Positions 1,636 to 55,316 of a stretch of 64,000 nucleotides of DNA are shown here, piece after piece. Source of the DNA: Phaeobacter sp. B1627 (lineage in GTDB: Bacteria; Pseudomonadota; Alphaproteobacteria; Rhodobacterales; Rhodobacteraceae); contig NZ_VCNK01000006.1 of NCBI RefSeq assembly GCF_006265095.1, positions 1-64,000 of the forward strand, in the 5' to 3' direction. How positions within the stretch are numbered: the first letter of the stretch is position 1; each line of letters starts with the position of its first letter. A model generated the notes under the pieces. The model saw only the letters and a program-made list of their open reading frames with translations, had not been told where the DNA came from and searched no databases. The translations under genes were made by a program, and so were the position numbers.

Positions 1636-1821
1636 GGGCGGGATCACCCGGGGGCATTCGTGAAAGAGCCGGCCAAAACCCGTCAAACCGCGCCTTTGGG
1701 CAGCTTCTTGCGCCGTTCGGGGTCAATGGCCCTTGCACCGCGCGGCGCGGAACAATAGAAGGCCACAAATTGTCTGGGGGCGGAGTCTGCGCGCGCGCCC
1801 CGAATCTCTATGGGGAATATG

Positions 1822-38648: not shown

Positions 38649-38666
38649 TAGTTTAACACTAAACTA
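38649..38666. promoter_or_regulatory. Palindromic operator upstream of pdhA
   Basis: A perfect inverted repeat TAGTTTA-ACAC-TAAACTA. The same 7-4-7 palindrome with another spacer occurs before lpd (55299-55316). Its position, centred 37 bases from the pdhA start codon, fits a site overlapping the promoter or transcript start. The regulator is unknown. Confidence 0.8.
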
Positions 38667-38800
38667 TCTTCTAGAGCATTTTGCCTCGGCATGCGAGTGA
38701 TAAAGTGACGCTACGGTACAAACGGCAGTGTTGTGCCGGGAATTGTCACCAAAGATCATGGGGATAGGGCAGGGGCAGGGAAGGGACCGGATGCCACAGC

Positions 38801-39100
38801 TCAGTCGATGATGATTTCGTCCGGGCGCGCCAGTCCGAGAACGGAACGGGCCTGTTCATCCAGAAGATCGAGATCAAGGAAGTCGTCGGACAGTCGCCGG
38901 GTAAGGTTTTCCATCCGAGCTGTGTCCTGGTGCAGCCGATCGAGATCCCGGGCAAGCGCATCCGCTTCGGCCTGGATTTCGACCCGCCGGAACAGACCGA
39001 AATCGCCCTGCACCGCCGCAAAGGTGAAATAGGCGCTCAGCAAGAAGGCGGCGGCAAAGAACAAGAGGCTGCCCAGAGAGGGAGTCGAATTTCGGGTCAC
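38801..39100 (-). CDS. FtsB/DivIC-like septum formation protein
   Basis: A 99-residue single-pass membrane protein: short cytoplasmic N-terminus, one helix (LLFFAAAFLLSAYFTFAAV, about 12-31) and a periplasmic coiled coil (RRVEIQAEADALARDLDRLHQDTARMENLTRRL), as in FtsB/DivIC, a partner of FtsL and FtsQ in the divisome. Its place just upstream of pdhA is common in Rhodobacterales. A 179-base gap with a separate operator suggests the pdh genes have their own promoter. Confidence 0.85.
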   Translation of the reverse strand: MTRNSTPSLGSLLFFAAAFLLSAYFTFAAVQGDFGLFRRVEIQAEADALARDLDRLHQDTARMENLTRRLSDDFLDLDLLDEQARSVLGLARPDEIIID

Positions 39101-39460
39101 GTCAGATTGGCCTGTATGAGGGGCTCGAACAGATTGCTGCGCCGGTTGGTCCGGCGTCTGACCCAGTTATGTCACAGGGACATTCTGCTGTGAATCCCTT
39201 AAATGATCCCGTCTGCCGGTGCTTTTGTCCGGGGCGGCAAAAGCTCGCCGAAACGGGCGGTTGGTTCCTCGAACACTAGGGGGTGACACGGCAAGTCGAA
39301 GAGATCCGCCGGGGCTGTCTCGCTGGAGATAGCTCGCCAGACACGGGTTGATCCGCCAGGGCAAAAGCGCGCTGGCGGATTGATCTTGCGGAGGGCGGCT
39401 TGCCTGACGAGACTAGCCTGGCGAAACTGGGTCCGAAACGGCTCCCTCCCCGGGAACGGA
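39101..39460. other. 360-base region between divIC-like gene and the chemoreceptor
   Basis: No gene or RNA recognised. It holds a perfect hairpin at 39351-39380 and probably the promoter of the DivIC-like gene. Confidence 0.5.
39351..39380. repeat. Perfect 9-bp inverted repeat
   Basis: ATCCGCCAG (39351-39359) pairs with CTGGCGGAT (39372-39380) around a 12-base loop. It lies about 80 bases downstream of the chemoreceptor stop and may end that transcript, though there is no T run. Confidence 0.55.
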
Positions 39461-41245
39461 TCAGGCGGCGGCTTGCCTTTCCTGGTGTTTGTCGTCGCGC
39501 TCGGGGGGCGCGCGATGGCCCAGAAAACTCTGCAGCAGGTTGGTCAAATGGCCGGCTTGAGCCCGCATTTCCTGGCTGGCGGAATAGGTTTCCTGCACCA
39601 TGGCGGCATTTTCCTGAGTAACCGTGTCCAGTTGCGCGACACCGATGTTGATCTCCTTGATCCCCGACGCCTGCTCGCTTGCGGAGGAGGCGATGGTGGA
39701 CACCAGACTTGACACATTGGTGACGCTCTCGACGATGTTGCTCAGGGTTTCGGCCGTGGCTTGCACCAATCGTTCGCCTTCGTTCACCTGGTTGGAGCTG
39801 TCGGCGACCAGTTGTTTGATTTCGCTGGCCGATTTCGCAGCTTTCAGCGCCAGTCCACGAACCTCTGACGCCACGACGGCAAACCCACGGCCCGCTTCGC
39901 CGGCACGAGCGGCCTCAACGCCGGCGTTCAGTGCCAGCAGGCTGGTCTGAAAGGCGATGTCGTCAATCGAAGTGATGATCTGGCTGATCTGTTCGGAGTA
40001 GCTGGCGATAGACGTCATTGCCTCCCGCGCCTGAGCCATCACCAGCCCGCCTTGTTCCGCGCGGCGGCGGCCCTCTTCGACCTCGCGGTCTGCGGCCTGG
40101 GCCTGTTCCGCGGTGGATTGGACACTGGCGGACATCTCCTCCAGCGCGGCCGCCGACTCTTCGAGCGTAGCCGCCTGCGTTTCCGCGCGATGGGACATCC
40201 GGTCAGACATCCGTTCCATTTCCTGGGCGTTCTTGTCCACCACGTCCGAGCTTTTGTTGAGCTGCGCCACAAGGTCTGCCAATGAGGTCGAGAGGGCATT
40301 GAAATCGCGACAAAGGGCGGTGTAGCCGGTGCCCAGATCGGCCCAGTCGTCTACGGGGATTTCCTGTTCAAGATCGCCGCTCTTGAGGTTGCTCATGGCC
40401 CTGCCGAGGGTATCGAACAGCTCGCCCCGGCGGTCATTTTCGTCACGCGTACGTTGTTCCGCCGCATCGGCTTCGGACAGCCGTCCGCTCAGCTCCTCAA
40501 GGTTGCGGGCAATCATGCCCACCTCGTCCTTGCGGTTGGTGTCGCTGATCTCACGGGTATAGTTCTTGTCCGAAAGCGCCTGAATGGTTTGAACGGTGCG
40601 TGCCATGGGCCGGCTCAGCTGGCGCGCAAAGAACACGGCGACCGCAATGGAGATCAGGGCGGCGGCCAGGCTGCTGCCCAGCTGGATAGACTGGCTGGTC
40701 TCGATCAGGCGGGTGACTTTCGCCGAGGCTGCTTCATTGCGGGCGCCGATGGCGTCCTGCAGGCCGTTGACCACATCGCGGACTTCTCCGATGATCGGGA
40801 CCGCGTTGGCGAAGGTCAGCTCCCGCTTGGCATCGCCTTCTGCCGCTTCGATTTTTTTGAGTTCGACCTCAAGGCGGTCGAGATTGCTGCCGAGACCGGT
40901 CAGAGCGTCGAAGGCCACCTGGTCGCGGGCCTCCGGGTATGCAACTTCGATAAAGCGCTCACCCGCAAGCGCGATTTCTGCGCGGACCTCGTCGGCGTTG
41001 CCGCGTAGCCGGTCCACCCCATCGGGCAGGCCCAGCGAGTAGGACAGAATGTCGCCGAGCCCCTGTTCGACATCTTCCTTGATGTCGTCAAGGCTTTTGA
41101 GCTGAACATTTCCCAGCCGCAAGAGGTGGATCGCATTGGTGAGATTGGCATTGGTCACCCAGGATAGCGTAGAGATCGTGGCCAGCATCGCGATAAATGC
41201 ACCGGCAAACATAAAAACCTGGGTACGGAGGGTGTAATTACTCAT
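39461..41245 (-). CDS. Methyl-accepting chemotaxis protein
   Basis: A 594-residue chemoreceptor. An N-terminal helix (about 9-33), a helical periplasmic sensor region (about 35-185, no named fold recognised), a second membrane helix (about 190-208), a HAMP domain ([14 protein letters not shown]...) and the cytoplasmic signalling coil follow. Its tip is the conserved [24 protein letters not shown] block near residues 415-440. It controls CheA and thus flagellar motion, and it is the only chemotaxis gene here. The start at 41245 (MSNYTLRTQ) lies just before the first helix; the frame is open 46 codons upstream. The ligand is unknown. Confidence 0.93.
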
Positions 41246-41404
41246 AACGGATACCTGACGTGTGCTGCGCGCGGAAAGTACCGGAACATTGAACCGCGCA
41301 ATGATTTCTTCTACCGCACACAGTATGAATAAACGGTTGCCACAGGCGGCTCTCCCGCTTGGTACACCGTAAATATCGTTCAACTGATATATTTCAGCTT
41401 ATGA

Positions 41405-41438
41405 AAAAGACGGCGGCGAGTGTCTCGCGCCGTCTTTT
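41405..41438 (-). terminator. Terminator after pgk
   Basis: A perfect 11-bp stem (41405-41415 with 41428-41438), 12-base loop. On the minus strand it ends in a T run, 57 bases beyond the pgk stop. Confidence 0.88.
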
Positions 41439-41494
41439 GGGATAATGGATTTTACCTACTGATATTCATAGGTTATTTTGCCGAGGCTGCCATT

Positions 41495-42685
41495 TCATTG
41501 GTTGAGCGCGGCAACGCCCGGCAGGTCCTTCCCTTCCATCCATTCAAGGAAAGCGCCGCCCGCCGTGGAGATATAGGTGAAGGCATCGGCTGCACCCGCC
41601 TGGTTCAGCGCGGCGACCGTATCACCGCCACCGGCGACCGAAATCAACTGCCCAGCGGCGGTGAATTCCGCCGCCTTTTGGGCCGCTTTGTTGGTGGCGA
41701 TATCAAACGGCGCAATCTCAAAAGCGCCGAGGGGGCCGTTCCAGATCAGGGTGCGCGTGGTGGCGAGGGCCTCAGCGATCGCATCCACGGTGGCGGGGCC
41801 TGCGTCCAGGATCATCGCATCGGCCGGACAGGCGTCGGCGGCAACGGTTTCACTGGCGGCACCGGCCTTGAACTCGCGGGCCACAACGATGTCGGTGGGC
41901 AGCAGGATGGTGCAGCCGGCGGCCTCGGCGCGCGCCATGATGTCGCGGGCGGTGTCGGTCATATCGTGCTCGCAGAGGGATTTACCCACATCGATCCCCT
42001 GAGCGGCCAAAAAGGTGTTCGCCATGCCGCCGCCGATCACCAGCCTGTCGACCTTGGCCACCAGATTGCCGAGGAGGTCGAGTTTGGACGACACTTTGGC
42101 GCCTCCGACAACAGCGGTGACGGGCCGTTCCGGCGTCGCCAGTGCCGCTTCGAGCGCCTTGAGCTCTGCCTCCATCAGCCGTCCGGCACAGGCGGGCAGC
42201 AGGCGGGCGAGCGCCTCGGTCGAGGCATGGGCGCGGTGAGCGGCGGAGAAGGCATCGTTGCAATAGAGATCGCCAAGCGCGGCCATCTCGCGCGCCAGTT
42301 GGGCATCGTTGGCTTCCTCGCCCGGATGAAAGCGGGTGTTTTCAAGGAGCAGGATCTGACCGGGCTGCAATGCGGCCACGGCGGCCTCGGCGGCGGGACC
42401 CCGGCAGTCGGCCACAAACACCACCGGCACCCCAAAGGCGGCCTCCAGAGTGGGCACCAGCGGCTGCAGCGACATCTCGGCCACGACCTTGCCTTTTGGA
42501 CGGCCGAAATGCGCCAGCAGCACCGGCCGGGCGCCCCGGTCCAGCAGATCCTTCAGGGTCGGGATCAGCCGGCGGATGCGGGTGTCATCGGTGACGGCGC
42601 CCTCTTCCATCGGCACGTTGATATCGACCCGGGTCAGAACAGTTTTGCCTTGCAGGTCCATGTCGTCGAGTGTTTTCCAGCCCAT
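41495..42685 (-). CDS. pgk: Phosphoglycerate kinase
   Basis: A 396-residue PGK, which transfers phosphate between 1,3-bisphosphoglycerate and ADP in glycolysis/gluconeogenesis. Diagnostic blocks: RVDINVPME at the N-terminus, [28 protein letters not shown], and C-terminal WNGPLGAFE and GGGDTVAAL (nucleotide site). The start [10 protein letters not shown] at 42685 is preceded by GAGGAG; the frame is open 19 codons upstream. Monocistronic. Confidence 0.97.
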
Positions 42686-42772
42686 ATCCGGCTCCTCTAT
42701 ATTGGTGCATACGCGGCGTCTCGGGGTGCGATCCTGTCGCATTGGCCGACCACCGCGGAGGGGTTCGCTCTG

Positions 42773-42798
42773 TCTTGGTGTCCAGTCTTGGTGTCCAG
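42773..42798. repeat. 13-bp tandem duplication
   Basis: TCTTGGTGTCCAG occurs twice in direct succession in the divergent promoter region between pgk and the cyclophilin gene. Confidence 0.7.
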
Positions 42799-42921
42799 TG
42801 TTTTGCGCCTGTCGTCAATGGCCGGATCCCGCAGGCCAGAGGCTTTGGTACATTGTTCCCTTGGCAAGGGCGGGCAGGGGCCTTAGGTATTCGGCCAAGT
42901 TGAAAATGACAGGAGGGCCTC

Positions 42922-43428
42922 ATGGCCGAGATCAAGGATCCAGAGAACACAATCATCATGGAGCTGAAGGGCGGCACGGTCGTCATCGAGCTGCTGGCGG
43001 ATGTCGCGCCCCAGCACACCGCGCGCATGAAGGAACTGGCGCGGGCCGGCGAATATGACAACGTGGCCTTTCACCGGGTGATCGACGGGTTCATGGCGCA
43101 GACCGGCGACGTCCAGCACGGCGATATGGAAGACGGCTTCAATATCCGTATGGCGGGCACCGGCGGATCCGATCTTCCGGACGTTCCGGCCGAATTTTCC
43201 AAACTGCCGCACGACCGGGGCACGCTGGGCGCGGCGCGGTCCTCCAACCCGAATTCCGCCAATTCGCAGTTCTTTATCAATTTCAAGGACAACAACTTCC
43301 TCAACGGTCAGTACACGGTCTATGGCCGCGTGATCGAAGGGATGGAGCATGTGGACGCCATCACCCGTGGCGAGCCGCCTGCGGAGCCGGACCGGATGAT
43401 CTCGGTCAAGGTGGCTGCGGATGCGTAA
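42922..43428 (+). CDS. Cytoplasmic cyclophilin-type peptidyl-prolyl isomerase
   Basis: A 168-residue single-domain cyclophilin without a signal peptide. The active-site blocks are VAFHRVIDGFMAQTGD (Arg in FHRVI, Gln in MAQTGD) and NSANSQFFINF, with FLNGQYTVYGRVIEGMEHVD following. It should catalyse proline cis-trans isomerisation in the cytoplasm. The next gene, a periplasmic cyclophilin, overlaps it by 8 bases, so both are made together. Confidence 0.95.
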   Translation: MAEIKDPENTIIMELKGGTVVIELLADVAPQHTARMKELARAGEYDNVAFHRVIDGFMAQTGDVQHGDMEDGFNIRMAGTGGSDLPDVPAEFSKLPHDRGTLGAARSSNPNSANSQFFINFKDNNFLNGQYTVYGRVIEGMEHVDAITRGEPPAEPDRMISVKVAADA

Positions 43429-43969
43429 GGCGCTGAGCATCCTGGCGGTGCTGGCCGCCGCGCCAGCCTTTGCCTCCGGTCTCGAAATCCAGATCGAGGG
43501 CGAGGCCAATGGCACCGTGCGGATCGACCTGCTGGAAGAGGTGGCGCCCAAACATGTGGCGCAGATCACCGCGCTGGCGGCCGAGGGCAAATACGATGGC
43601 GTGGTCTTTCACCGGGTAATTGACGGCTTCATGGCGCAGACGGGCGACGTGGAGTTCGGCCGTCTCGGTGAGGACATGCGCGCGGCCGGCACAGGCGGGT
43701 CGGACCGCCCGGATTTGCCGGCGGAATTCTCGGATCTGCCCTATGATCGCGGTGTCGTGGGCATGGCGCGATCGCAGAACCCGAACAGCGCCAATTCGCA
43801 GTTCTTCATCATGTTCGAACCCGGCCATTTCCTCAACGGTCAATACACCGTCGTGGGGCGGGTGACCGAGGGCATGGATGTGGTTGACGCGATCAAACGG
43901 GGCCAGCCCCGCTCCGGTTCCGTCACCGGCAAGCCCGACGTGATGACAAAGGTCACCGTGACCGAATAG
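43421..43969 (+). CDS. Periplasmic cyclophilin-type peptidyl-prolyl isomerase
   Basis: A 182-residue cyclophilin with a signal peptide (MRKALSILAVLAAAPAFASG, cleavage near residue 18). The catalytic blocks VVFHRVIDGFMAQTGD, NSANSQFFIMF and FLNGQYTVVGRVTEGMDVVD are nearly the same as in the preceding cytoplasmic gene, which indicates a local duplication followed by gain of an export signal. It should assist folding of exported and outer membrane proteins. Confidence 0.95.
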   Translation: MRKALSILAVLAAAPAFASGLEIQIEGEANGTVRIDLLEEVAPKHVAQITALAAEGKYDGVVFHRVIDGFMAQTGDVEFGRLGEDMRAAGTGGSDRPDLPAEFSDLPYDRGVVGMARSQNPNSANSQFFIMFEPGHFLNGQYTVVGRVTEGMDVVDAIKRGQPRSGSVTGKPDVMTKVTVTE

Positions 43970-44040
43970 AAGCTGCGATAGAACCTGCACGCGGTCGGCC
44001 TGTCCAAGGGCGGGGCGACCGGTTCCGGCGGGCTCTGTAG

Positions 44041-44076
44041 AAAAGCCGCCCCCGTCACAACCGGTGCGGCTTTTTT
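44041..44076 (+). terminator. Terminator of the cyclophilin pair
   Basis: A 9-bp stem (44041-44049 with 44066-44074), 16-base loop, T run extending to 44076. Confidence 0.8.
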
Positions 44077-44105
44077 GTGCAATGTGGGCGGGAAAAACTA
44101 TACAG

Positions 44106-44136
44106 AAAAGGCGCCGCCGATGCCGGGGCGCCTTTT
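44106..44136 (-). terminator. Terminator of the bactofilin gene
   Basis: A perfect 10-bp stem (44106-44115 with 44127-44136), ending in TTTT on the minus strand; convergent with the previous terminator. Confidence 0.8.
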
Positions 44137-44202
44137 GATGTGGCGGGACGTGCCGTCAGGCAGCCCTGATCACGGGTGCATCCGTTGCCGGAGCCGCGCC
44201 GA

Positions 44203-44736
44203 TCAGCCGTCGATCTTCGCAGGCGCGCCTGTCGGGATCGGCTTCTGGGCGCCTTTGCCGGGGCTCAGCGGGTCATCCTGACGCTGTACGGAGCCTTCGA
44301 AATGGGCGCCGCTCTCGATCGCGATGGTCTTGTGGATGATGTCGCCTTCGACACGGGCGGTGGAGGTCAGGCGCACCTTGAGGCCACGGACACGGCCCAC
44401 GATACGGCCATTGATGACCACGTCGTCGGCGGTGATCTCACCCTTGATGGTGGCAGATTCGCCGATGGTCAGCAGATGCGCGCGAATGTCGCCTTCGACA
44501 GTGCCTTCGACCTGAATGTCGCCGGTCGTCTTGACGTTGCCTGTAATGTGCAGGTCCGAGCTGAGCAGCGACGCCGGGGGCTTTGCCTTTGGTGCGGCGG
44601 GCTTTTTATACTCGCTGGCACCAGAAGAAGCGCTGCCGGACGCCGTTGCGGGCGCTGCGCTGGAAGTCGGCATCGCCGCCGGTGATGTATCGGCTTGTTT
44701 TGGGCCGGGCTCGTTGATTTTGCTCTTAGAAAACAT
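44203..44736 (-). CDS. Bactofilin
   Basis: A 177-residue polymer-forming cytoskeletal protein. After a disordered Ala/Pro/Ser/Lys-rich N-terminus (about 1-55) comes the right-handed beta-helix core with Gly/Val/Ile repeats (HITGNVKTTGDIQVEGTVEGDIRAHLLTIGESATIKGEI). Bactofilins form filaments at the membrane and recruit cell wall enzymes. The start codon overlaps the end of the M23 peptidase gene by 11 bases, the standard pairing of bactofilin with a LytM-type endopeptidase. Confidence 0.95.
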   Translation of the reverse strand: MFSKSKINEPGPKQADTSPAAMPTSSAAPATASGSASSGASEYKKPAAPKAKPPASLLSSDLHITGNVKTTGDIQVEGTVEGDIRAHLLTIGESATIKGEITADDVVINGRIVGRVRGLKVRLTSTARVEGDIIHKTIAIESGAHFEGSVQRQDDPLSPGKGAQKPIPTGAPAKIDG

Positions 44737-46057
44737 TTCTCGCAGCCTTGATATAGATCATGGGGTTTACAGGTTTGCCATTGACCCTGACCTCGTAGTG
44801 GAGGTGGGTCCCGGTGGACCGTCCGGTGCTACCCATATCAGCAATATGATCCCCGCGCGAGACCCTTTGACCGACCTTGACGCGGATGTTGGAATTATGG
44901 GCGTATCTGGTTTCAATGCCAAAGGCATGCCGGATCGTGACGAGGCGGCCATAGCCGGATTGCCAACCGGCATGGGTCACCACACCGTCTGCGGTGGCAA
45001 AGATATCGGTGCCGGTGCTGCCTGCGAAATCAGACCCTTTGTGCAGCCGCCGACCGCCGGTTTTCGGGTCGCGACGATAGCCGAACCCCGAGGACTGGCG
45101 CACATGGCCGAGATTGACCGGCGTCGAAAAGGGCGCCCGTTCGGCCGCGATCCGGTAGAGGTTGAGCTGGCTCATCTGGTTCAGCAGCTCGTTGGCGCGC
45201 ACCTCGTCCGCCGAGGGTTCCTCGCCGCGGGTGGACAGGGACAAAGGCTCCAGCGGGCCGCCTTCGCCATTATAGCCGCGCCGCACCTGTTCCAGAATCC
45301 GGTCCGGTGGCAAGCCGGCGCTGGAGAACATTTTGGTCAGAGGTTCGACCGAGATCGCCATGGCTTCTTCCAGTTGGCGAAAGATCTGGTCGTTGCGCTG
45401 TGCTGCCAGTTGCAGTTCCAGTTCCAGATCGTCCCGCTGGGCCAGCGCGGATTGAGCATCCGATTGGATCTGGTCCCGTTCGGCCGCGGTTTCGGCCAGC
45501 GCCGTGGTCAGAAAGTCGAGCTGTTCGGGCGCGGTGGCCGCCAGTACCTGCTCCGGGCTGTCTGGGGCCGATTGCTTGCGCAGATCCAGCACCGTGCGGC
45601 GCAGAATTTCGCGCTCGCGCATGGTTTGACGCAGGTTGGCCTGAATGACGTCAATGCCGGTTTCCAGCTCACGCTTGCGGGTCTCGGAGCTGAGCAGCTC
45701 GGATTGCATGGTGGAAATCTGTTCCAGCGCGGCATTGAACCGGTCCTGCGCGGCAAGGGCCTCCTCCGCGCGGCGGTCGCGTTCGGAGGACATCGCATTC
45801 AGCCGCTCCTGATAGACCTGCTGGTCGCGCCGTGCCTGATCGCGGAAATTGCCGGAGCCGATGCTGTCCATCAGCACGATGGCAGTGGCAACGATGGACC
45901 ATGACACAAAGAGCGCCAGCCCTGCGACAGCGATGATCTGGGTTTCGGAGCTGAGCCGGATAAAGCGCGTGTCGCTGTCTGACTTCAGGAACACCCGGCG
46001 TTCGGGAAAGCGGCGTTCAAAGAACGCGTGTACCCGTAGTGTCAAACCGCGTCTCAC
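44726..46057 (-). CDS. M23/LytM family metallopeptidase with coiled coil
   Basis: About 443 residues from a GTG start. One membrane helix (about 38-62, LALFVSWSIVATAIVLM), a long periplasmic coiled coil (about 70-250), then a C-terminal M23 domain: SSGFGYRRDPKTGGRRLHKGSDFAG gives the first zinc His and Asp, and THLHYEVRVNG the last His. It is a likely DD-endopeptidase of peptidoglycan. The GTG at 46057 is chosen because AAGGA lies 9 bases before it and homologues start near the basic FFERRFPERRVFLKSD segment; an ATG at 46159 would add 34 unrelated residues. It forms a two-gene unit with the bactofilin. Confidence 0.93.
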   Translation of the reverse strand: MRRGLTLRVHAFFERRFPERRVFLKSDSDTRFIRLSSETQIIAVAGLALFVSWSIVATAIVLMDSIGSGNFRDQARRDQQVYQERLNAMSSERDRRAEEALAAQDRFNAALEQISTMQSELLSSETRKRELETGIDVIQANLRQTMREREILRRTVLDLRKQSAPDSPEQVLAATAPEQLDFLTTALAETAAERDQIQSDAQSALAQRDDLELELQLAAQRNDQIFRQLEEAMAISVEPLTKMFSSAGLPPDRILEQVRRGYNGEGGPLEPLSLSTRGEEPSADEVRANELLNQMSQLNLYRIAAERAPFSTPVNLGHVRQSSGFGYRRDPKTGGRRLHKGSDFAGSTGTDIFATADGVVTHAGWQSGYGRLVTIRHAFGIETRYAHNSNIRVKVGQRVSRGDHIADMGSTGRSTGTHLHYEVRVNGKPVNPMIYIKAARNVF

Positions 46058-46336
46058 GATCCGCAATCCTTGTTCTATTCCATGACCGGATGGCGCGCCT
46101 GCCTCTGGCGCGCGGCTGTGACCGGTCTTGGCCAATTGGAATAGCCAGACTGTGGCCATCCGGCAACCCTGTTCCGCCCCGTTTGCAATAAAGTTGCGGC
46201 ATTCCTTGGCCTTGGGCAGAAAACTGCCGATATCAACCTGTTCGGCTGCGCCATGGCGAACCCGGGTGCACAGCCCGAGATACGCCCGAGGTCGCGTTCC
46301 TCAACCCCTCACGTCAGCCCCGCACTCCAGTCGGCA

Positions 46337-47179
46337 TCACCGGGCGTAGGCCGGGGCTTCGCCATCTGCGAGCGGCCAGTAAAAATCCGGTGGCAGCCCG
46401 GCATCGGCGCGCTTTTCCTCATTGAAGGGGGGCTTCAGCGCGCCGTGGAAATAGGTCTGGACCAGCGCGTGAAACTCCGCCTTGGGATCGAGATTGTCGC
46501 GCCCGCAGAGAAAATTGAACCATTTGGCGCCATAGGCCACATGGGCGACCTCTTCGGAGTAGATGACCTCAAGCGCGTCGACGGCCTCGGTCATGCCTGC
46601 CTTTCGAAACAGGGCGATCATGCCGGGGGTGACATCAAGGCCGCGGGCCTCGAGCACCATCGGCACCACCGCGAGGCGTCCCATCAGATCATCGACGGTA
46701 TCCTCGGCGGCGCGCCACATTCCGGCATGGGCGGGCAGGGCGCCGTAGTGGCTGCCGAGCGAGGCCAGGCAGTCGCACATCAGGTTGAAGTGCTTGGATT
46801 CCTCATCTGCGGATTTCACCCAGTCGTCATAGAAGCCGAGCGGCATCGGCACATGGGTGAACCGCGCAATGATATCCCAGTGGAGATCGACCGCGTTGAG
46901 CTCGATGTGCGCCACCGCATGAAGGAGGGCAATGCGTCCCTGCGGCGAGCCGGGCTTGCGTTTGGGCACATCGCGGGGATGCAGCAGTTCCGGTGCGTCG
47001 GGGCGGCTCGGATGCAGCGGCGGGCTTGCCTGACCGACCTCGATTGCTGCGGTCTCGCCAGTGCGCGCGGCCCGCCAGGCGGCGGCATACCGCCGGGAGA
47101 GCGCTGTTTTCTCGTGACCATCGGCGGTCGTGAGTACATTGACGGCCATCTGGGCAAGGGTGAGCTGAGGTTCGGTCAT
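46337..47179 (-). CDS. Ferritin-like DUF455 family protein
   Basis: A 280-residue helical protein of the DUF455 family (rhamnosyltransferase-annotated in some databases without proof). The ferritin-like core contains repeated acidic/His motifs: AHIELNAVDLHWD, WVKSADEESKHFNLM, and EVIYSEEVAHVAYG, which suggest a di-iron or similar metal site. No signal peptide. Function unknown. It stands alone between the M23 gene and the bcp gene, on the same strand. Confidence 0.88.
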   Translation of the reverse strand: MTEPQLTLAQMAVNVLTTADGHEKTALSRRYAAAWRAARTGETAAIEVGQASPPLHPSRPDAPELLHPRDVPKRKPGSPQGRIALLHAVAHIELNAVDLHWDIIARFTHVPMPLGFYDDWVKSADEESKHFNLMCDCLASLGSHYGALPAHAGMWRAAEDTVDDLMGRLAVVPMVLEARGLDVTPGMIALFRKAGMTEAVDALEVIYSEEVAHVAYGAKWFNFLCGRDNLDPKAEFHALVQTYFHGALKPPFNEEKRADAGLPPDFYWPLADGEAPAYAR

Positions 47180-47632
47180 TGTCTGTGCTGGTCTCGCTGT
47201 ATTGTGGTCGGTACCTGCGCGCTGAGGTCACCTGTCATGCGCTCCGGCGGGAGGCGGCGCTGTCGCATTTGGCAGGTGTCGGCAGGCTCTGTCAGCACCG
47301 CAGTTACAGCATCCGGGCGCAGAGATGAACAGTGATCACACAGACACAGGGGGCGAGGCGGAGGGGGTGGTGGAGTCTGGGGCAGAGGTTTGGGGCGCAG
47401 GCCAGGCGCGAATTCACCTGACCCCAGCCGGGATCAAGGCGACTGAAACATCGCCGGACCGAGCGACCGGGGTGGCGCGAGCGAAGTACGACCTTGAGGG
47501 ATTGCGCTGCGTGAGACGCATCGCGGGGGGGCGGGGGCCGCGCCTTCGGCGCGGCCCCCGCCCGGCCCAACGCATTTGTGGCGAGGCTTTGCCTCTGCCC
47601 GAATGGGGCGGGAGCGCTGCCTTTTGAGTTCT
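47180..47632. other. 453-base region between bcp and the DUF455 gene
   Basis: GC-rich, no gene supported. It contains the large hairpin at 47529-47563 and should carry the promoter of the DUF455 gene. Confidence 0.5.
47529..47563. repeat. 16-bp GC-only hairpin
   Basis: A perfect 16-bp stem of only G and C (47529-47544 with 47548-47563) with loop TTC. It lies about 70 bases after the bcp stop on the minus strand. It resembles the REP-like hairpins frequent between genes in Rhodobacterales; it may also block transcription. Confidence 0.75.
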
Positions 47633-48094
47633 TCAGAGAGCCTTGACCGCCTCCAGGACCTCTTCGACATGTCCGGGCACTTTGACCTTGCGCCAGATCC
47701 GGGCGATCCGGCCATCCTGAGCGATCAGAAATGTCGCGCGTTCGATCCCCATGCTCTTTTTGCCATACATGTTCTTTTCCACCCAGACGCCGTAGTCTTC
47801 GCAAGTGGTGGCCTCGGCATCCGAAAGCAGCGGAACCGTCAGCTCATGTTTGGCGACGAATTTGTCATGTTTTGCGACCGTATCGCGGGAAATGCCGAAA
47901 ACGGCGGCACCCGCATCGGCAAAGGCTTGCAGATGTTCGGAAAATCCGATGGATTCCTTGGTGCAACCCGGCGTATCATCGCGCGGGTAGAAGAAAAGAA
48001 CAACGACCTGACCCGACAGGTCCGATAGGGATACCTCACCTCCGCCATCGCGGGGCAGGGTGAACGCAGGGGCAAGGTCAGAGGGTTCGAGCAT
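47633..48094 (-). CDS. bcp: Thioredoxin-dependent peroxiredoxin, Bcp/PrxQ type
   Basis: A 153-residue peroxiredoxin. Peroxidatic Cys44 lies in PRDDTPGCTKES. The nearby resolving Cys found five residues later in E. coli Bcp is absent (Ile49). The only other Cys is Cys98 (TTCEDYGVW), so resolution may use that residue, as in the distal-Cys PrxQ subtype, or an external thiol. It reduces H2O2 and organic peroxides in the cytoplasm. The start MLEPSDLAPAFTL is chosen by family over a longer frame. It is divergent from the AsmA-like gene, with only 61 bases between start codons. Confidence 0.93.
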   Translation of the reverse strand: MLEPSDLAPAFTLPRDGGGEVSLSDLSGQVVVLFFYPRDDTPGCTKESIGFSEHLQAFADAGAAVFGISRDTVAKHDKFVAKHELTVPLLSDAEATTCEDYGVWVEKNMYGKKSMGIERATFLIAQDGRIARIWRKVKVPGHVEEVLEAVKAL

Positions 48095-48155
48095 GTTTTG
48101 GGTCTCCAGACGGTATCGCGCAAGGTTTATTGCTATTGCGAGCCATACATAGATC

Positions 48156-51100
48156 ATGTCCGGCGAAGAAAAAGCACAGATTGTTGCACCACCGCAGGAA
48201 GACTTGCCTCAGTTCGTCACGCCGGCGGATCTGAAGGCCGCGCGCAGGCGTCGCCGGTGGCGGCGATGCGGCAAGGCAGGGGGCTGGCTGATCGCGCTGG
48301 CGGCGGTGGTGGCCGTCGCCATAACGGTCCTTCTGGACAAGCGCCTTGACGCGCCAGGATGGGTGCGCGCCGTAGCCGAGGAACGGATCGAGGAACAACT
48401 GGGCGGGCTCCAGATCGAATTCGGAGAGATCCAGCTGGTGGTGCGGCGGGGCTGGCGGCCGCGGGTGTCGCTTCGGGATGTGACCGTCTTCTATCCCGAC
48501 GGCACGCCTGCGATGCGGCTGGAGGATGCGCAGGCGGCGCTGGCGATGCGGCCGCTGCTGCGAGGGCACGTGCGGCCAAAGACGATTTCTCTGACCGGGC
48601 TGTTTGCCACCCTGCAGCGCAACAGCGGTGGCGCGGTGGCGTTGAGTTTCTCGGACGGCGGCACACCGTTTCGCGAGGCCAGCAACCTGCCGCAGCTGAT
48701 TGATGCCTGGGACCGCCACCTCGAATTGCCGATTCTGTCGGCTCTGACCCGCGTCGAGACCCAGGCCGTGACCCTGCGCTATGAGGATCTGCGGATCGGC
48801 AAGGCCTGGACGCTGGACGGTGGCACGGTACAGCTCGCACGCAACGGAAACAGTATCGGGATCGAGGCCGGGTTCTCGATTCTCAGCGGCCGCGAGTATG
48901 CCAGCACGGTCGAGGCCACCTACCGGTCCGATATTGGCGATACGGGGGCCGAATTTGCGGTGGTGGTCGATCAGGTGGCAAGCTCTGATATTGCCAGTCA
49001 GAGCCCGGCCTTCGGCTGGCTCGATGTGCTGCGGGCGCCGATCTCGGGGTCGCTGCGCGGGGCGGTGGACAGCGACGGCGCGCTGATGCCGCTGACCGCC
49101 AGCCTGGAAATCGGCACCGGGGTGATCCAGCCGAACGAAGCCCTGAAACCGGTGCCGATCCGGTCCGCGCGCAGCTTCTTCACCTTTGATCCCGCGCAAC
49201 AGGAGCTGGAATTCTCGAACCTCTCCGTCGACAGCGGCTGGGTCACCGGACAGATGGAGGGGCGGGCGGAACTGGTCGGGGTGCGCGACGGCAGGCTGAC
49301 CGAACTGGTGGGCCAGCTGCGGTTCTCCGATCTGAAGGTCAACCCGTTGAGGCTCTATCCCGAGCCGCTGTCCTTTGCCGGGGTGAGCGCCGATTTCCGC
49401 ATGGAGCTGTCGCCCTTTCGCCTGCGTCTGGGCGAAATGCTGATCCAGCGCGAGGAGACGGATATCCTGATCAGCGGCGAGGTCCGCGCGGGCGAGGTCA
49501 GTTGGGACTACGATCTGGAGGGCGCGGCGGACCGGTTCGATGTGGACATGGTCAAGGCCCTGTGGCCGCCCTCGGCGCCGACAAAACCGCGCCAGTGGTT
49601 TATCGACAATGTCAGCTCTGGCGAGATCCGTGACGCCCAGGTGGCGCTGCGGTCACGCAACGGCGAACGGCCCTTTCTGGCGCTGGATCTGGGGTTCGAA
49701 AATGGCGCCGTGAAGTTCAACAAATTCTATCCGCTGCTGGAACGGGCCAAGGGTCAGCTGAGCATCTACGGCACGCGTCTGGTGGCGACCGCGACCGAAG
49801 GCTGGCTGCAGCCGGAGCAGGGCGGAGATGTGGATCTGGGGGGCAGTTCGTTCATTATTCCCGACACCTCGCTCAAGGATGGCAACAGCATCGGCATCCT
49901 GCGTGCGCAGGCGAGCGGATCGGCGCGGGCGGCATTGGCGCTCTTGAACCGGGCGCCGCTGCGCATTCTGGACAAGGCGGGACTGCCGGTCGATCTGGGA
50001 TCTGGTGAGGTGACGGTGACGGCGACCGCCTCAATGCCGCTGCGGGACAAGCTTGAGATCTCCGAGGTGGACTATCACTACAGCGGCAGTCTGACCGCTG
50101 TCGAAAGCGATGTGCTGGTGCCGGGCTATGGGCTGGCCTCGGACCGGCTTGAGCTGTCGGGCGACAATACCCATGTGGAAATCTCCGGTCCGGGCTTCAT
50201 CGGCGGGCTGCCGGTCACCGCGCATTGGAGCCAGGCGCTCGGGGCGGGGGGAGACGGGGCAAAACCGGGGCGGGTGACGGGGCAGATCGAACTGTCTGAC
50301 CGCACCATCGACGTGTTTCGGATCGGGCTGCCCGAGGGCGCGGTGAGCGGCGAGGGGCTGGCGGATTTCGAGGTGACCTTGCCGCCCGGCGCGCCGGTGC
50401 GGCTGCGGGTGAACAGTGATCTTGAGGGGGTGGGCCTCTGGGTGGCCGAGCTGGGCTGGCGCAAGGCCGCATCCACGACCGGATCCCTGTCCTTTGCCGC
50501 AGAGCTGGACGACACGCCGACGATCGAGGACTTGTCACTGGAGGCCAACGGTCTGGCTCTGTCCGGGCGGGTGATCCTCAACCCGGATGGCGGCTTCGAT
50601 CAGGCGCAGTTCTCTTCTGTTTCGCTTGGGGGGTGGTTGCAGGGGCCGGTGACCCTGACCGGCCGGGGCGAGGCCGCGCCTGCGATTGCCATGTCCGGGG
50701 GGCGCGTCGATCTGCGCAAGGCGCCCTTCAGCAGCAGTGACGGGGCCGGGGGGAGTGCCGGGGGCGGTTCCGGTGGCAATACGCCCATCACCCTGGCGCT
50801 GGCAGAGCTGCAGGTGACCGATGACATCGCCCTGTCCCGGTTTGAAGGGCGGTTTGACACCCGTGGCGGCTTCAACGGGTCGTTCACCGGCAATCTCAAC
50901 ACCCTGACCCCGGTCGAGGGCGTGGTGGTGCCGCAGGACGGCGGCATGGCGATGCGGGTGAAATCACAGGATGCCGGCGGGGTCTTTCGCTCTGCCGGGG
51001 TGATGCGCCATGGCTTTGGCGGCAGCTTCGAGATGACCATGGTGCCCTCGCAGACGGCAGGCGAATACAACGGTCAGGTGCTGGTCAAGAACATCCGGAT

Positions 51101-51587
51101 CAAACGGGCGCCGGCGATTGCCGCGCTGATCAATTCACTGAGCCTCGTGGGGCTGTTTGACGAATTGTCGGGGCAGGGGATCCTGTTCACGGCGGTCGAG
51201 GCGGATTTCAGGCTCGGGCCGCGCTATCTGACCGTCAACAGCGGCTCTGCGGTGGGGCCCTCCATCGGGCTGTCGCTGGATGGTATCTATGATCTCAGCA
51301 CCAGCAACATGAACATGCGGGGCGTGCTGTCGCCGATCTATCTGGTCAATGCGATCGGCAGCGTGCTGACCCGCAAGGGAGAGGGGTTGTTCGGCTTCTC
51401 CTTCACGCTCAAAGGCACGGCGGATGACCCCAAGGTATCGGTCAACCCGCTGTCGGGGATCGCACCGGGGTTCCTGCGCGAGATCTTTCGCGGCGCCCAA
51501 CCCACCGCGCCGGGGGAGGAGCCGGAACAGATCGCCACGCCCGAAGAACAGCGCGAGGAACGCAGGCTGCGCAATGAAAACCGCTAG
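48156..51587 (+). CDS. Large AsmA-like/DUF3971 protein (YhdP-type)
   Basis: An 1143-residue protein: basic cytoplasmic N-terminus, one membrane helix (about 43-60, LIALAAVVAVAITVLL), then over 1000 periplasmic residues rich in beta structure, with DUF3971/AsmA-like middle and an AsmA_2 C-terminal region (about 900-1090). It belongs to the AsmA/TamB/YhdP group, bridge-like proteins thought to move phospholipid between inner and outer membranes. A Gly/Ser-rich insert sits near residues 863-880. The last 40 residues are charged. It ends about 90 bases before queA, which is probably co-transcribed. Confidence 0.9.
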   Translation: MSGEEKAQIVAPPQEDLPQFVTPADLKAARRRRRWRRCGKAGGWLIALAAVVAVAITVLLDKRLDAPGWVRAVAEERIEEQLGGLQIEFGEIQLVVRRGWRPRVSLRDVTVFYPDGTPAMRLEDAQAALAMRPLLRGHVRPKTISLTGLFATLQRNSGGAVALSFSDGGTPFREASNLPQLIDAWDRHLELPILSALTRVETQAVTLRYEDLRIGKAWTLDGGTVQLARNGNSIGIEAGFSILSGREYASTVEATYRSDIGDTGAEFAVVVDQVASSDIASQSPAFGWLDVLRAPISGSLRGAVDSDGALMPLTASLEIGTGVIQPNEALKPVPIRSARSFFTFDPAQQELEFSNLSVDSGWVTGQMEGRAELVGVRDGRLTELVGQLRFSDLKVNPLRLYPEPLSFAGVSADFRMELSPFRLRLGEMLIQREETDILISGEVRAGEVSWDYDLEGAADRFDVDMVKALWPPSAPTKPRQWFIDNVSSGEIRDAQVALRSRNGERPFLALDLGFENGAVKFNKFYPLLERAKGQLSIYGTRLVATATEGWLQPEQGGDVDLGGSSFIIPDTSLKDGNSIGILRAQASGSARAALALLNRAPLRILDKAGLPVDLGSGEVTVTATASMPLRDKLEISEVDYHYSGSLTAVESDVLVPGYGLASDRLELSGDNTHVEISGPGFIGGLPVTAHWSQALGAGGDGAKPGRVTGQIELSDRTIDVFRIGLPEGAVSGEGLADFEVTLPPGAPVRLRVNSDLEGVGLWVAELGWRKAASTTGSLSFAAELDDTPTIEDLSLEANGLALSGRVILNPDGGFDQAQFSSVSLGGWLQGPVTLTGRGEAAPAIAMSGGRVDLRKAPFSSSDGAGGSAGGGSGGNTPITLALAELQVTDDIALSRFEGRFDTRGGFNGSFTGNLNTLTPVEGVVVPQDGGMAMRVKSQDAGGVFRSAGVMRHGFGGSFEMTMVPSQTAGEYNGQVLVKNIRIKRAPAIAALINSLSLVGLFDELSGQGILFTAVEADFRLGPRYLTVNSGSAVGPSIGLSLDGIYDLSTSNMNMRGVLSPIYLVNAIGSVLTRKGEGLFGFSFTLKGTADDPKVSVNPLSGIAPGFLREIFRGAQPTAPGEEPEQIATPEEQREERRLRNENR

Positions 51588-51680
51588 GGCGGCGATCTGC
51601 CGCCTGCGGGCCGGGGCGGCCTGCTGCAAATGGCGCAAAGACCATGGACATTGGCAATCCACCGCAGTATCGCGCGCTGC

Positions 51681-52739
51681 ATGAAACTGAGCGATTTTGA
51701 CTTTGACCTGCCCGAGGATCTGATTGCGACACGGCCTGCCGTGCCGCGCTCTTCGGCACGTCTTCTGGTGGCCGAGCAGGACCGGATCACCGATGCCCGG
51801 GTCACCGATCTGACCGAGTGGCTGCGGCCGGGGGACCGGTTGGTGCTGAACGACACCCGGGTGATCCCCGCGCGGCTGAGTGGCAAGCGGCACCGGGACT
51901 CGGCGCAGGGGCCGGTTGCGGCACGCATCGATGTCACCCTGCTGGAGCCGCAGGCAAACGGAACCTGGGCGGCGCTTCTGAAGCCGCTGAAAAAGATCAA
52001 ACCGGGTGAGCATATCCGCTTTGGCGCCGGGTTGTCGGGCGAATTGACCGAGGTGGTCGACGGCCAGGCGCGGCTGCGGTTCAACCTGACCGGCTCCGAT
52101 TTCGACGCGGCCCTGGCCGAGGCCGGGGCGATGCCATTGCCGCCCTATATCGCGGCCAAACGCCCCGCCGATGCGCAGGACAAGACCGACTATCAGACGG
52201 TTTGGGCAAAACACTCCGGCGCGGTTGCCGCACCGACGGCCTCCTTGCATTTTGACGCGCCGCTCCTGGCGGCATTGGCGGCCAAGGGGGTGGAGTTCAC
52301 CTATGTGACCCTGCATGTGGGGGCCGGGACCTTCCTGCCGGTGAAGGTGGAGGATGTCACCTCGCACCGGATGCATGCGGAATGGGGCCAGGTGACGGCA
52401 GAGGCGGCGCAGGACATCGCGGCGACCCGTGCGGCCGGGCATCGGGTGATCCCGGTCGGCACCACGGCGCTGCGGCTGATCGAGAGCGCGGCACGCGACA
52501 GCGGTACAATCGCCCCCTGGGAGGGCGAGACGGATATCTTCATCTATCCGGGGTTCGAATTTCGCGTCGCAGATGCGCTGATGACCAATTTCCACCTGCC
52601 TAAATCGACGCTGATGATGTTGGTCTCGGCCTTGATGGGGCAGGAGCGGATGCGCAGGGTTTATGCGCATGCAGTGAGTGAGCGCTACAGATTCTTCTCC
52701 TACGGCGACGCCTCCCTGCTGATCCCGAAATCTGCGTAG
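51681..52739 (+). CDS. queA: tRNA preQ1(34) S-adenosylmethionine ribosyltransferase-isomerase
   Basis: A 352-residue QueA, which converts preQ1 in the tRNA anticodon to epoxyqueuosine. Family blocks: the N-terminal [49 protein letters not shown] and C-terminal [16 protein letters not shown]. The start at 51681 is chosen by family; an in-frame ATG 17 codons upstream lacks similarity. It follows the AsmA-like gene in the same direction. No tgt or queG nearby. Confidence 0.97.
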
Positions 52740-52870
52740 TCATTTCACCCGCCCTGTGGCAGGGAAGAGATGCGGGGGGGAAAGCGGTGAAAATCGCAGG
52801 CCCCGTCGTTCCTGTCCCCCCGCGAGTCGGAAACGCCGGGCCGCGCGGGGGCAAAATTGCCGATACCCAC

Positions 52871-52908
52871 GGCGTCCCGCAGTGCAGACGGCGTCCCGCA
52901 GTGCAGAC
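52871..52908. repeat. 19-bp perfect tandem duplication
   Basis: GGCGTCCCGCAGTGCAGAC occurs twice head to tail, followed by the start of a third unit (GGCG). It lies in the spacer between queA and the MFS gene. Confidence 0.75.
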
Positions 52909-53031
52909 GGCGGCTCAGATGAGTACAGCTTCCCGGTCATGATGCGTCATGTGCCAGGGTCATTCCAATTCCCCCGCGCCCCCGCAAAAGGCCGCTGGGT
53001 TCCCGACAAAGACTGAAGGAGACGAAACGAC

Positions 53032-54306
53032 ATGTTCCAGGTTCTGTCCAGCGCATGGGCGCTGCTGTTGGGGATCGGGCTTTTGATGCTGGGTAACGGC
53101 CTGCAGGGGACGTTGCTGGGCGTGCGCGGCGGCATCGAGGGCTATTCGACTTTCACGATGTCCCTCGTGATGTCCACATATTTTGTCGGGCTTCTGATCG
53201 GGTCGTGGATCGCACCGGGGATGATCCGCCGGGTTGGCCATGTGCGGGTGTTTGCGGCGCTGGCCTCGTTGATTTCGGCGGTCATGGTGATCTACCCGGC
53301 GCTGCCGAACCCGATCGTCTGGATGATCGGCCGTCTGATCGTGGGCTTTTGCTTCTCCGGTGTGTATGTGACCGCCGAAAGCTGGCTCAACAACGCCGCC
53401 GACAACGAGAACCGCGGCAAGGCGCTCTCGCTCTATATGATCGTCATGACCCTCGGGCTGGTGGCGGCGCAGGGGTTCATCCTGATCGGGGATCCGGCGG
53501 GCTATCTGCCGTTCATCATTGCCTCGGTTGCGGTTTCGATCTCCTTCGCGCCCATTCTGCTGTCGATCTCGCCCACGCCGGCCTTTGGCACCGCCAAGCG
53601 GATGACACTTCGGCAGCTGATGGAGGCCTCGCCGCTGGGCTGTGTCGGCATGTTCCTGATCGGTGGCGTCTTTGCGGCCCAGTTCGGCATGGCGGCAGTC
53701 TATGCGACCGAAGCCGGTCTGAAGCTGCATCAGGTTTCGCTGTTTGCGGCCAGTTTCTATGTCGGGGCGCTGTTCCTTCAGTTCCCGCTCGGGCTGCTGT
53801 CGGACCGGATGGATCGCCGGGTGTTGGTCATCTTTGTCGCCGGAACCGGCGCTGCGGCCTCGGCGCTGGCGATGATCTTTGGCGGCCATTTCATCGTGCT
53901 GCTGACCCTGTCCTTCGTGATCGGCGGCATGGTCAACCCGCTCTATTCCCTGCTGCTGGCCCATACCAACGACTTTCTCGAACATGACGACATGGCGGCG
54001 GCTTCGGGGGGGCTGATCTTTATCAACGGGCTTGGCGCCTCCACCGGGCCGCTGATCATCGGCTGGCTGATGTCTGACGCGGTGTTCGGCCCGAACGGGT
54101 TTTTCCTCTTCATGGGCATGCTGCTCGGGGCGCTTGTGCTTTACGCGCTCTACCGGTCGACACAGCGGGCCACGATCCCGGTCGAAGAGACCGGCGTCAT
54201 GGCCGCGATGAGCCCGAGCGCCACATCAGTGGCGGCGGAAGTCGCGCAGGAATATGCCATCGAGACCGAACTGGAAGAGCAGGAAAACGCCGCCAACGCA
54301 GGGTGA
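53032..54306 (+). CDS. MFS transporter, YcaD-like
   Basis: A 424-residue major facilitator with 12 predicted helices. The layout, the RRVGHVRVFAALASL loop between helices 2 and 3, and the YVTAESWLNNAADNENRGKALSLYMI block resemble the YcaD-type subgroup. The last 45 residues are an acidic soluble tail (EELEEQENAANAG-like). Substrate unknown. Start behind GGAG (53020-53023). A long perfect hairpin follows. Confidence 0.9.
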   Translation: MFQVLSSAWALLLGIGLLMLGNGLQGTLLGVRGGIEGYSTFTMSLVMSTYFVGLLIGSWIAPGMIRRVGHVRVFAALASLISAVMVIYPALPNPIVWMIGRLIVGFCFSGVYVTAESWLNNAADNENRGKALSLYMIVMTLGLVAAQGFILIGDPAGYLPFIIASVAVSISFAPILLSISPTPAFGTAKRMTLRQLMEASPLGCVGMFLIGGVFAAQFGMAAVYATEAGLKLHQVSLFAASFYVGALFLQFPLGLLSDRMDRRVLVIFVAGTGAAASALAMIFGGHFIVLLTLSFVIGGMVNPLYSLLLAHTNDFLEHDDMAAASGGLIFINGLGASTGPLIIGWLMSDAVFGPNGFFLFMGMLLGALVLYALYRSTQRATIPVEETGVMAAMSPSATSVAAEVAQEYAIETELEEQENAANAG

Positions 54307-54323
54307 TGGCGCCAACATGCCGA

Positions 54324-54368
54324 AAATCCTGCCATCTGATCACAAAAATACCTCAGATGGCAGGATTT
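54324..54368. repeat. 16-bp perfect inverted repeat between MFS and DUF924 genes
   Basis: AAATCCTGCCATCTGA (54324-54339) pairs perfectly with 54353-54368 around a 13-base loop that contains AAATACC. It lacks a T run. It could act as the end of the MFS transcript or be a repeat element. Confidence 0.8.
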
Positions 54369-54453
54369 GTAACCTAACGTCACTTGTACTTGCGGGGTGA
54401 ATCAGCGTCATCTGGATCTGTTTGTTACTTTTACAGCCGGTGGAGTGAACCCA

Positions 54454-55032
54454 ATGGCAGGCCCCGAAGAGATACTTGATTTCTGGCTCGACACAGTCGG
54501 CGAGGACGGGTGGTATCGCCAGGACGATGCGCTGGATGCGGAGATCCGTTCCCGATTTGAAGAAACATGGAAAATGGCGAGCGAGGGCAGCTATTCGCTG
54601 TGGCTCACCTATCCCAGTGGCGTATTGGCCTATATCATTCTGCTCGATCAGTTCCCGCGCAACATGTTCCGTGGCGACAGCAAGGCCTTTGCCACCGATC
54701 CGGCGGCGCTGGCAGCGGCCAAGGCGGCGGTGGATCGCAAGTGGGATCTGCGGCTCAATGAACCGGCGCGCCAGTTCTTTTATCTGCCGTTGATGCATTC
54801 CGAGAGCCTCTGTGATCAGGAACGCTGTGTCCGCCTGATGCATGAACGGCTCCCCGAGACGGGCGGCAGCAATCTGGTCCACGCCCGGGCGCACCGCGAA
54901 GTCATCCGCCTGTTCGGCCGCTTCCCATATCGCAACGAAGCCCTCCATCGCCACAGCACCGCCCCCGAACGCGACTATGTTGCGGCTGGCGGCTACGGCT
55001 CGACGCTGCGCGAGTTGCAGGCGGCGGTCTGA
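54454..55032 (+). CDS. DUF924 family protein
   Basis: A 192-residue helical protein of the DUF924 family: EEILDFWLDTVGEDGWYRQDDALDAEIRSRF, then ILLDQFPRNMFRGDSKAFATDP (signature) and YLPLMHSESLCDQERCV. The fold is tetratricopeptide-like; function is unknown. The start at 54454 follows GGAG (54442-54445). Transcribed alone, with a terminator after it. Confidence 0.9.
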   Translation: MAGPEEILDFWLDTVGEDGWYRQDDALDAEIRSRFEETWKMASEGSYSLWLTYPSGVLAYIILLDQFPRNMFRGDSKAFATDPAALAAAKAAVDRKWDLRLNEPARQFFYLPLMHSESLCDQERCVRLMHERLPETGGSNLVHARAHREVIRLFGRFPYRNEALHRHSTAPERDYVAAGGYGSTLRELQAAV

Positions 55033-55128
55033 TCCCGGCTCTGGCGGGATCATCGCAGGGCCTTATCGCAAGGCCGGATCTGAATGGACATCAGGGCCTG
55101 CGGGGATTGGCATGAACCAAAGGCTGGG

Positions 55129-55152
55129 GCCCTGCCATCGGCGGGGCTTTTT
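55129..55152 (+). terminator. Terminator after the DUF924 gene
   Basis: An 8-bp stem (55129-55136 with 55140-55147, one G-U pair), triloop ATC, then TTTTT. Confidence 0.75.
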
Positions 55153-55298
55153 GCTCTCTATCACTCTCTCTGACGGTCCGGCTCTCCAGGGTTGAGCGTC
55201 CCTGCCCACTTTGCCGTACGGGTCGGGCGGCCGGGGTGGGTTCCGGTTGTGACGGGGTCGCCTTCCATAGCCTTCGGTTGTTGCGGCCTGCGAATATT

Positions 55299-55316
55299 TA
55301 GTTTAACGGTAAACTA
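55299..55316. promoter_or_regulatory. Palindromic operator upstream of lpd
   Basis: A perfect inverted repeat TAGTTTA-ACGG-TAAACTA, 30 bases before the lpd start codon. It is the same 7-4-7 palindrome as upstream of pdhA (38649-38666), so E1/E2 and E3 of the same complex probably share a regulator. Confidence 0.8.

Follow-up and report, generated by a model that had tools for sequence, protein, structure and literature searches.

The 64,000-nucleotide stretch of Phaeobacter sp. B1627 analyzed here (contig NZ_VCNK01000006.1, positions 1 to 64,000; hereafter the window) carries two copies of an 18-base-pair (bp) palindrome, one before the pyruvate dehydrogenase operon pdhABC and one before the dihydrolipoamide dehydrogenase gene lpd. 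Judging from sequence comparison, these palindromes are probably (at a probability of about 0.85) the operators of one pyruvate-node regulon consisting of pdhABC, lpd, and the malic enzyme gene maeB, which would be read by a MarR-family protein and probably kept repressed until a metabolite releases that protein. An earlier note on this DNA had proposed a common regulator of pyruvate oxidation, and the proposal was supported by the operator shared among pdhABC, lpd, and maeB and by a specific MarR candidate that emerged from comparison. The idea of shared regulation itself stood; the third target maeB, the constrained center of the palindrome, and the identity of the regulator were lacking from it. 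Genomes, contigs, and loci are cited below by our own handles (G, C, and L), the B1627 assembly being G000.

Probable operators before the pyruvate genes

The palindrome TAGTTTA-N4-TAAACTA was present at 38649–38666 and 55299–55316, with perfect 7-bp arms in both 18-mers, and the position scan thus agreed with the earlier note. The pdhABC operator lies on the minus strand (TAGTTTAACACTAAACTA as written in the window and TAGTTTAGTGTTAAACTA on the gene strand), 27 nucleotides (nt) from the pdhA start codon, while the lpd operator lies on the plus strand (TAGTTTAACGGTAAACTA), 30 nt from the lpd start codon. Measured from the operator centers, the distances to the start codons were 36.5 nt for pdhA (start 38621) and 39.5 nt for lpd (start 55347), matching the 37 and 40 bases given before. 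The gene names proposed from the letters also agreed with Pfam. On the minus strand, pdhA (37608–38621, 337 amino acids) codes for pyruvate dehydrogenase E1 alpha, pdhB (36211–37590, 459 amino acids) for E1 beta with an N-terminal lipoyl domain, and pdhC (34889–36199, 436 amino acids) for the dihydrolipoamide acyltransferase E2; on the plus strand, lpd (55347–56741, 464 amino acids) codes for dihydrolipoamide dehydrogenase.

The 7-4-7 structure described earlier held for the arms and not for the four central bases as a free spacer. In a symmetrized profile of 80 pdhA sites, position 8 was A in 62% and G in 36%, and position 9 was C in 68% and T in 28%, mirrored at positions 10 and 11, with CG as the central dinucleotide in most sites. 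With positions 8–11 thus constrained, the palindrome runs unbroken over 18 bp (TAGTTTAAC joined to GTTAAACTA). The conserved pdhA/lpd element, TAGTTTAACGTTAAACTA, was confirmed to be unlike the E. coli PdhR site AATTGGT-N3-ACCAATT, in a comparison of the two words for which the window was not scanned with that of PdhR.

The explanation that the match between the two sites represents chance or a dispersed repeat was refuted by the shuffle expectation, the rarity in the genome, and the conserved gene positions. In the window, the pattern scan found only these two sites at up to 3 mismatches, at which the expected count from shuffles was 0.01, and none of 100 shuffles reached two. In the whole assembly containing the window (4,346,721 bases), three sites were found at up to 1 mismatch, none with 2 mismatches, and 11 with 3 mismatches, that is, just three copies at up to 2 mismatches in 4.35 megabases. 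In addition to the two window sites, the third was TAGTTTAACACTAAACAA (1 mismatch; C42:80350–80367), located 22 nt before an open reading frame (L003:1541) whose profile match was malic enzyme, maeB. The strong sites of the genome therefore all front pyruvate genes, namely those for E1/E2 of pyruvate dehydrogenase, E3 of the same complex, and the pyruvate-forming malic enzyme, and no strong hits were scattered elsewhere.

The word was also conserved at the same genes across Rhodobacteraceae. In 18 genomes (G000 and 17 congeners), 2–4 sites apiece were found at up to 1 mismatch, and those in the congener loci read were at pdhA, lpd, or maeB, with G009 (L126) as the sole exception. Conservation before pdhA was evaluated in the best 80 of 584 named loci, from genera including Tritonibacter, Phaeobacter, Leisingera, Sulfitobacter, Roseovarius, Paracoccus, Cereibacter, and Rhodovulum. 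All 80 had a recognizable copy within 400 nt of pdhA, which was exact in 45 and had 1, 2, 3, and 4 mismatches in 20, 10, 4, and 1 loci, respectively; the distance from site end to pdhA start was 25–28 nt in 53 and 14–50 nt in 74 of these 80. Across 149 Rhodobacteraceae genomes, the total of strict sites was 222. A part of all sites, 88 distinct ones from pattern-hit loci chosen before their gene content was known, was assigned to genes, and 77 of them were located 14–78 nt before the starts of pdhA (31), maeB (27), or lpd (19), the remaining 11 being elsewhere, three of them with no clear target. Taken together, the pdhA loci and the pattern hits bore out the expectation that the palindrome is kept before pdhA and lpd in related species.

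A candidate regulator of the MarR family

We infer that one particular MarR-family protein, presumably a dimer, is the most likely reader of the operators. The route to this protein was the occurrence of the word as a pair, 21 bp apart, before an oxidoreductase-marR operon in G039 and G045, which belong to other alphaproteobacterial families. When that outgroup MarR was used as the query, a match with E <1e-28 was obtained in 24 of the 25 Rhodobacteraceae genomes of the draw, including G000 (C124); G021, the sole genome without a strong match, was also without a site. The G000 candidate is a protein of 146 amino acids (C124:74360–74797) encoded on another contig than pdh, in the gene order grxC-nit-marR with ubiG opposite. 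The same arrangement was seen in 28 Rhodobacteraceae loci, some of which share a genome, except that grxC was unseen in L162, which is short, and ubiG in L171, and a search for marR on plasmids found none. The protein was filed under the MarR family as its scores exceeded the winged-helix cut-offs (PF12802, MarR_2, 49.5 bits against 27; PF01047, 30.6 against 24.6). No curated NCBIfam equivalog fitted it, all seven hits being well under their cut-offs (best 27.4 bits against 220), and the closest solved structure by sequence, 8ylf, was distant (E 2.8e-9).

The co-occurrence of MarR and sites was evaluated in the 149 genomes, with MarR called at E ≤1e-15 and pdhA at E ≤1e-150. MarR was present in 128 genomes, a count that includes G025 and G166 (38–43% identity) and a fragment in G188, and strict sites were present in 115; the absence of MarR in G168 was read by elimination. 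Among the 132 genomes that were at least 90% complete, strict sites were found in 103 of 116 with MarR and 0 of 16 without it (Fisher p 4e-13, ignoring relatedness). When pdhA was also required, the numbers were 100 of 112 and 0 of 8, and the seven MarR-less complete genomes with a readable region upstream of pdhA had no site there. Moreover, three complete genomes (G036, G071, and G131) had MarR and sites, though this pdhA was absent. Thirteen of the complete genomes with MarR had no strict site; seven of these were read, and six of them (G091, G094, G097, G103, G118, and G138) had a degenerate pdhA site, the seventh being G142, described below. As a separate observation, this pdhA, MarR, and strict sites were all absent from the complete genomes G034, G088, G095, G107, G112, G135, G143, and G168, and these eight may use another pyruvate dehydrogenase.

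Some Rhodobacteraceae also possess a MarR paralog (helix VPKT[TS]M[TS]H), approximately 35–41% identical to the candidate, which might be taken for the true regulator. It was rejected, as it was absent from G000, the window's own genome, which has sites. The paralog (E ≤1e-35) occurred in 25 of the 149 genomes, its helix differs from that of the candidate, and neither the five paralog genes read (L301–L305) nor L236 had a site nearby.

Outside Rhodobacteraceae, a class-wide draw of 190 genomes contained 13 relatives of the MarR, all of them just downstream of an Acg-type oxidoreductase gene whose product is 40–63% identical to the G039 oxidoreductase (itself excluded). The G039 oxidoreductase passed the cut-off of NF047509, the Acg-family FMN oxidoreductase. 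In 9 of the 13, from seven families, the word pair preceded the oxidoreductase gene with a spacing of 20–23 bp from start to start (L143:2549–2587, L144:2693–2731, and L223, L224, L227, L228, and L230–L232). While G039 and G045 had led to the protein, the seven with the pair among the other 11 relatives were found protein-first. The counts at 2 mismatches in the outside genomes were about those of a reversed control, so only sites at up to 1 mismatch were weighted. Among the matches listed for seven of the nine genomes, the pair represented the only such sites, except for one extra in G351; the listing excludes G045, G308, and G256. In G348, one member of the pair has 2 mismatches; in G293, the pair is weak, with profile scores of 16.0 and 13.2; and in G200, one member scores 14.7. 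The paired sites before the oxidoreductase-marR operon suggest autoregulation and a helically phased double binding.

The nine outside relatives with the word were 39–47% identical to the candidate, and all nine had the recognition helix [VL][TA][RK]GA[MI]TN, which reads VTRGAMTN in the G000 candidate. In the other four, GA[MI]TN was absent, the helices being VSRATMTN (L229), VSKPSMTA (L233), VTKASMGE (L234), and VSQPTMSS (L235), and no copy of the word was found before their operons. In three of these operons, two copies of another palindrome occupied the corresponding place, namely TAATTCGATATCAAACCA and TGATACGATATCGAATTA in L229, ATTAGTTAGCTAACTATC and GTTAGTTAGCTAACTAAT in L233, and TAGTAAGGAACCATACTA and CGGTATGGACCCTTACTA in L234, and in each case 0 of 300 shuffles reached the score. 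All three pairs were no farther than 120 nt upstream of the oxidoreductase match, which is on the minus strand (from 3114, 3113, and 3107, respectively); L232 was excluded from the shuffle test of pairs because its oxidoreductase match begins well inside the gene. In L235, a single perfect 18-bp palindrome, TATATAGATATCTATATA, was found upstream of 3098, with no pair (106 of 300 shuffles reached the best pair). With a different palindrome pair in three of the four operons with other helices, the word changes when the helix changes. Thus, operator and recognition helix appear to change together, while the operon architecture is constant.

These comparisons bear on the alternative that the word is bound by some other regulator, for example CceR of the LacI family or a PdhR analogue of the GntR family, and that the MarR merely has the same phylogenetic distribution. 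A mostly CG center, as in the present sites, is common in LacI-family operators. Moreover, central carbon metabolism in Rhodobacter and Paracoccus is reported to be under the control of CceR, and MaeB to be decreased in a cceR mutant of Paracoccus (PMC11323563). However, the center of the word is not invariant, with its C at 68% and T at 28%. In addition, word pairs precede the MarR's own operon in seven families outside Rhodobacteraceae, the word changes together with the MarR recognition helix, and complete genomes with pdhA and without MarR have no sites. On these comparisons of sites and MarR, binding by another regulator is considered improbable, and the MarR is retained as the probable reader of the operators.

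Mode of control and relation to known systems

MarR-family repressors typically have short palindromic operators close to promoters. At the operators described here, the MarR would cover the promoter or start region, by which pdhABC, lpd, and maeB would be repressed, and a hypothetical effector, a metabolite of the pyruvate/acetyl-CoA node, would release the MarR and turn the genes on. Repression by occlusion, a weaker inference than the binding by the MarR, is favored with fairly good confidence, based on the closeness of the sites to the start codons, the placing of a TTG at lpd, and a TTGACA in the outgroup. In 12 of 19 lpd regions, a TTG preceded the operator by 18 nt, so that the -10 box would fall within the operator, and in two outgroup operons, from G200 (L231) and G328 (L234), a TTGACA was seen by eye a short way before the two operator copies. 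The same MarR could also bind as an activator or dual regulator, since some central-metabolism regulators are dual, and neither window site had a match to a canonical promoter from which a distance to the transcription start could be taken. However, the sites, at 14–78 nt from the start codons, are downstream of the usual class I activator position, and both the lpd TTG and the outgroup TTGACA argue against activation, which is therefore regarded as the less likely mode, at perhaps one chance in several.

Several observations weigh against the proposed regulon and its repression by the MarR. The TTG was found in only 3 of 27 maeB regions and was not among the frequent positions at pdhA, and a sigma-70 scan matched no sigma-70-like promoter at either window site. 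No site scoring at least 12 was found in the 28 Rhodobacteraceae marR loci scanned; thus, autoregulation gives no support to the link between MarR and word inside the family. The helix varies in orthologs, reading KAAMTN in G115 and G134, RSAMTN in G064, and RGTMTN in G032, and as G115, G134, and G064 keep one strict site each despite the altered helix, the code is not strict. In the case of co-occurrence, G142 and G025, whose MarR proteins are 50% and 38% identical to the candidate with the same helix core, have pdhA with no site before it, and G166 (42% identical, GAMSN) is without a strict site and without pdhA. Sites were also found in four MarR-less genomes; as these are incomplete (completeness of 74–83%), marR may lie in the missing DNA. 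On a pdhA tree of 40 rows, with MarR status omitted for 4 incomplete genomes, MarR changed 5 times and the site 6 times. The tree neighbors G089/G183 and G070/G113 differ in both MarR and site, and a sign test on this tree cannot reach significance because the pairs are too few (2 on well-supported branches). Finally, the sites of the minor targets described below are farther from their genes (72–243 nt), and several are between divergent genes, which makes their assignment ambiguous.

The system was compared with known regulators of the same metabolism. PdhR, of the GntR family, occurs in enterobacteria and other groups, responds to pyruvate, and is reported to be the sole control of aceEF-lpdA in several lineages (PMC5343134). 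The regulon proposed here resembles that of PdhR in being small and arranged around pyruvate dehydrogenase and lpd. It differs in the protein family of its candidate regulator (MarR), in its operator (TAGTTTAACGTTAAACTA), in having maeB among its targets, and in the location of the regulator gene on a contig apart from pdh. CceR belongs to the LacI family, a protein family different from MarR. In PMC11323563, it is described as a global switch between glycolysis and gluconeogenesis that affects malic enzyme in Paracoccus; CceR is comparable to the candidate as a central carbon regulator in Rhodobacteraceae, whereas the regulon here would be small and centered on the pyruvate node. The Acg-family oxidoreductase-marR operons possess a related MarR and, in the nine with the word, the same word and recognition helix. 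These operons have two sites before the MarR's own operon, while Rhodobacteraceae have single sites before pyruvate genes, with none found near marR.

We lean toward a history in which a MarR that governs its own Acg-type oxidoreductase-marR operon by way of paired sites was recruited in the Rhodobacteraceae ancestor as a dedicated pyruvate-node regulator, with the word nearly unchanged and autoregulation lost, and with aceE and acetoacetyl-CoA reductase among the targets added in some lineages. A PdhR-like role would then be played by an unrelated protein sensing pyruvate or acyl-CoA. In one open-access literature library, no text with the word and no account of such a MarR regulon was found, although print elsewhere is possible. 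No MarR member is known to control the pyruvate dehydrogenase complex.

Whether carbon is burned or stored is decided at the conversion of pyruvate to acetyl-CoA, and both abundant marine heterotrophs and model phototrophs belong to Rhodobacteraceae. A conserved and testable regulator of this conversion, with its gene, operator, and target list, would close a gap for which CceR does not evidently account. Moreover, a self-controlled operon outside the family and a pyruvate regulon inside it, both with the same word, would represent a clean case of regulon rewiring under a largely constant protein–DNA code, and the operons in which both helix and word changed make the code itself testable.

Minor targets and isolated sites

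In some relatives, the regulon may extend to aceE, the thiB/aroC region, an acetoacetyl-CoA reductase gene, or a Ser/Thr dehydratase-like gene, to judge from the placing of their sites. In G119, a site (L261:2884–2901) was found 213 nt upstream of aceE, which codes for the homodimeric pyruvate dehydrogenase, the frame on the other side being 235 nt off. Both pdhA and aceE are present in this genome with a site upstream of each, and two types of pyruvate dehydrogenase are perhaps under one operator there. In two genera, a site (L138:2911–2928 and L259:2954–2971) was located between divergent aroC (78–79 nt) and thiB (182–183 nt). While aroC, named by eye, is the closer of the two, thiB belongs to an ABC transporter for thiamine uptake, and the regulon may thereby be connected with thiamine diphosphate, the cofactor of E1. 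For the acetoacetyl-CoA reductase gene, two sites were found 112 and 242 nt upstream, and for the Ser/Thr dehydratase-like gene, one site was found 120 nt upstream.

A few sites stand apart from these targets. The site of G083 (C15:93812, L279; score of 18.6) is without a clear target. The LacI-type gene beside the fourth G009 site (L126, score of 16.2) was rejected as a target, and the site was taken as chance. In G073, a perfect copy (L203:1501–1518) is located between the converging ends of two open reading frames (315–1508 and 1521–3005), where no promoter is expected. Of the 11 three-mismatch places in G000, ten had profile scores of at most 14.6 and one scored 19.1; the latter, the only one whose neighbors were read, is flanked by one IHF-like and one MerR-like open reading frame, as judged by eye. 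Lastly, sites in two genera (L263:2623–2640 and L271:6978–6995) were found in the maeB neighborhood upstream of an adenosine-deaminase frame, at 225 nt in G158 and at 72 nt in G170, where the frame start may be placed too early.

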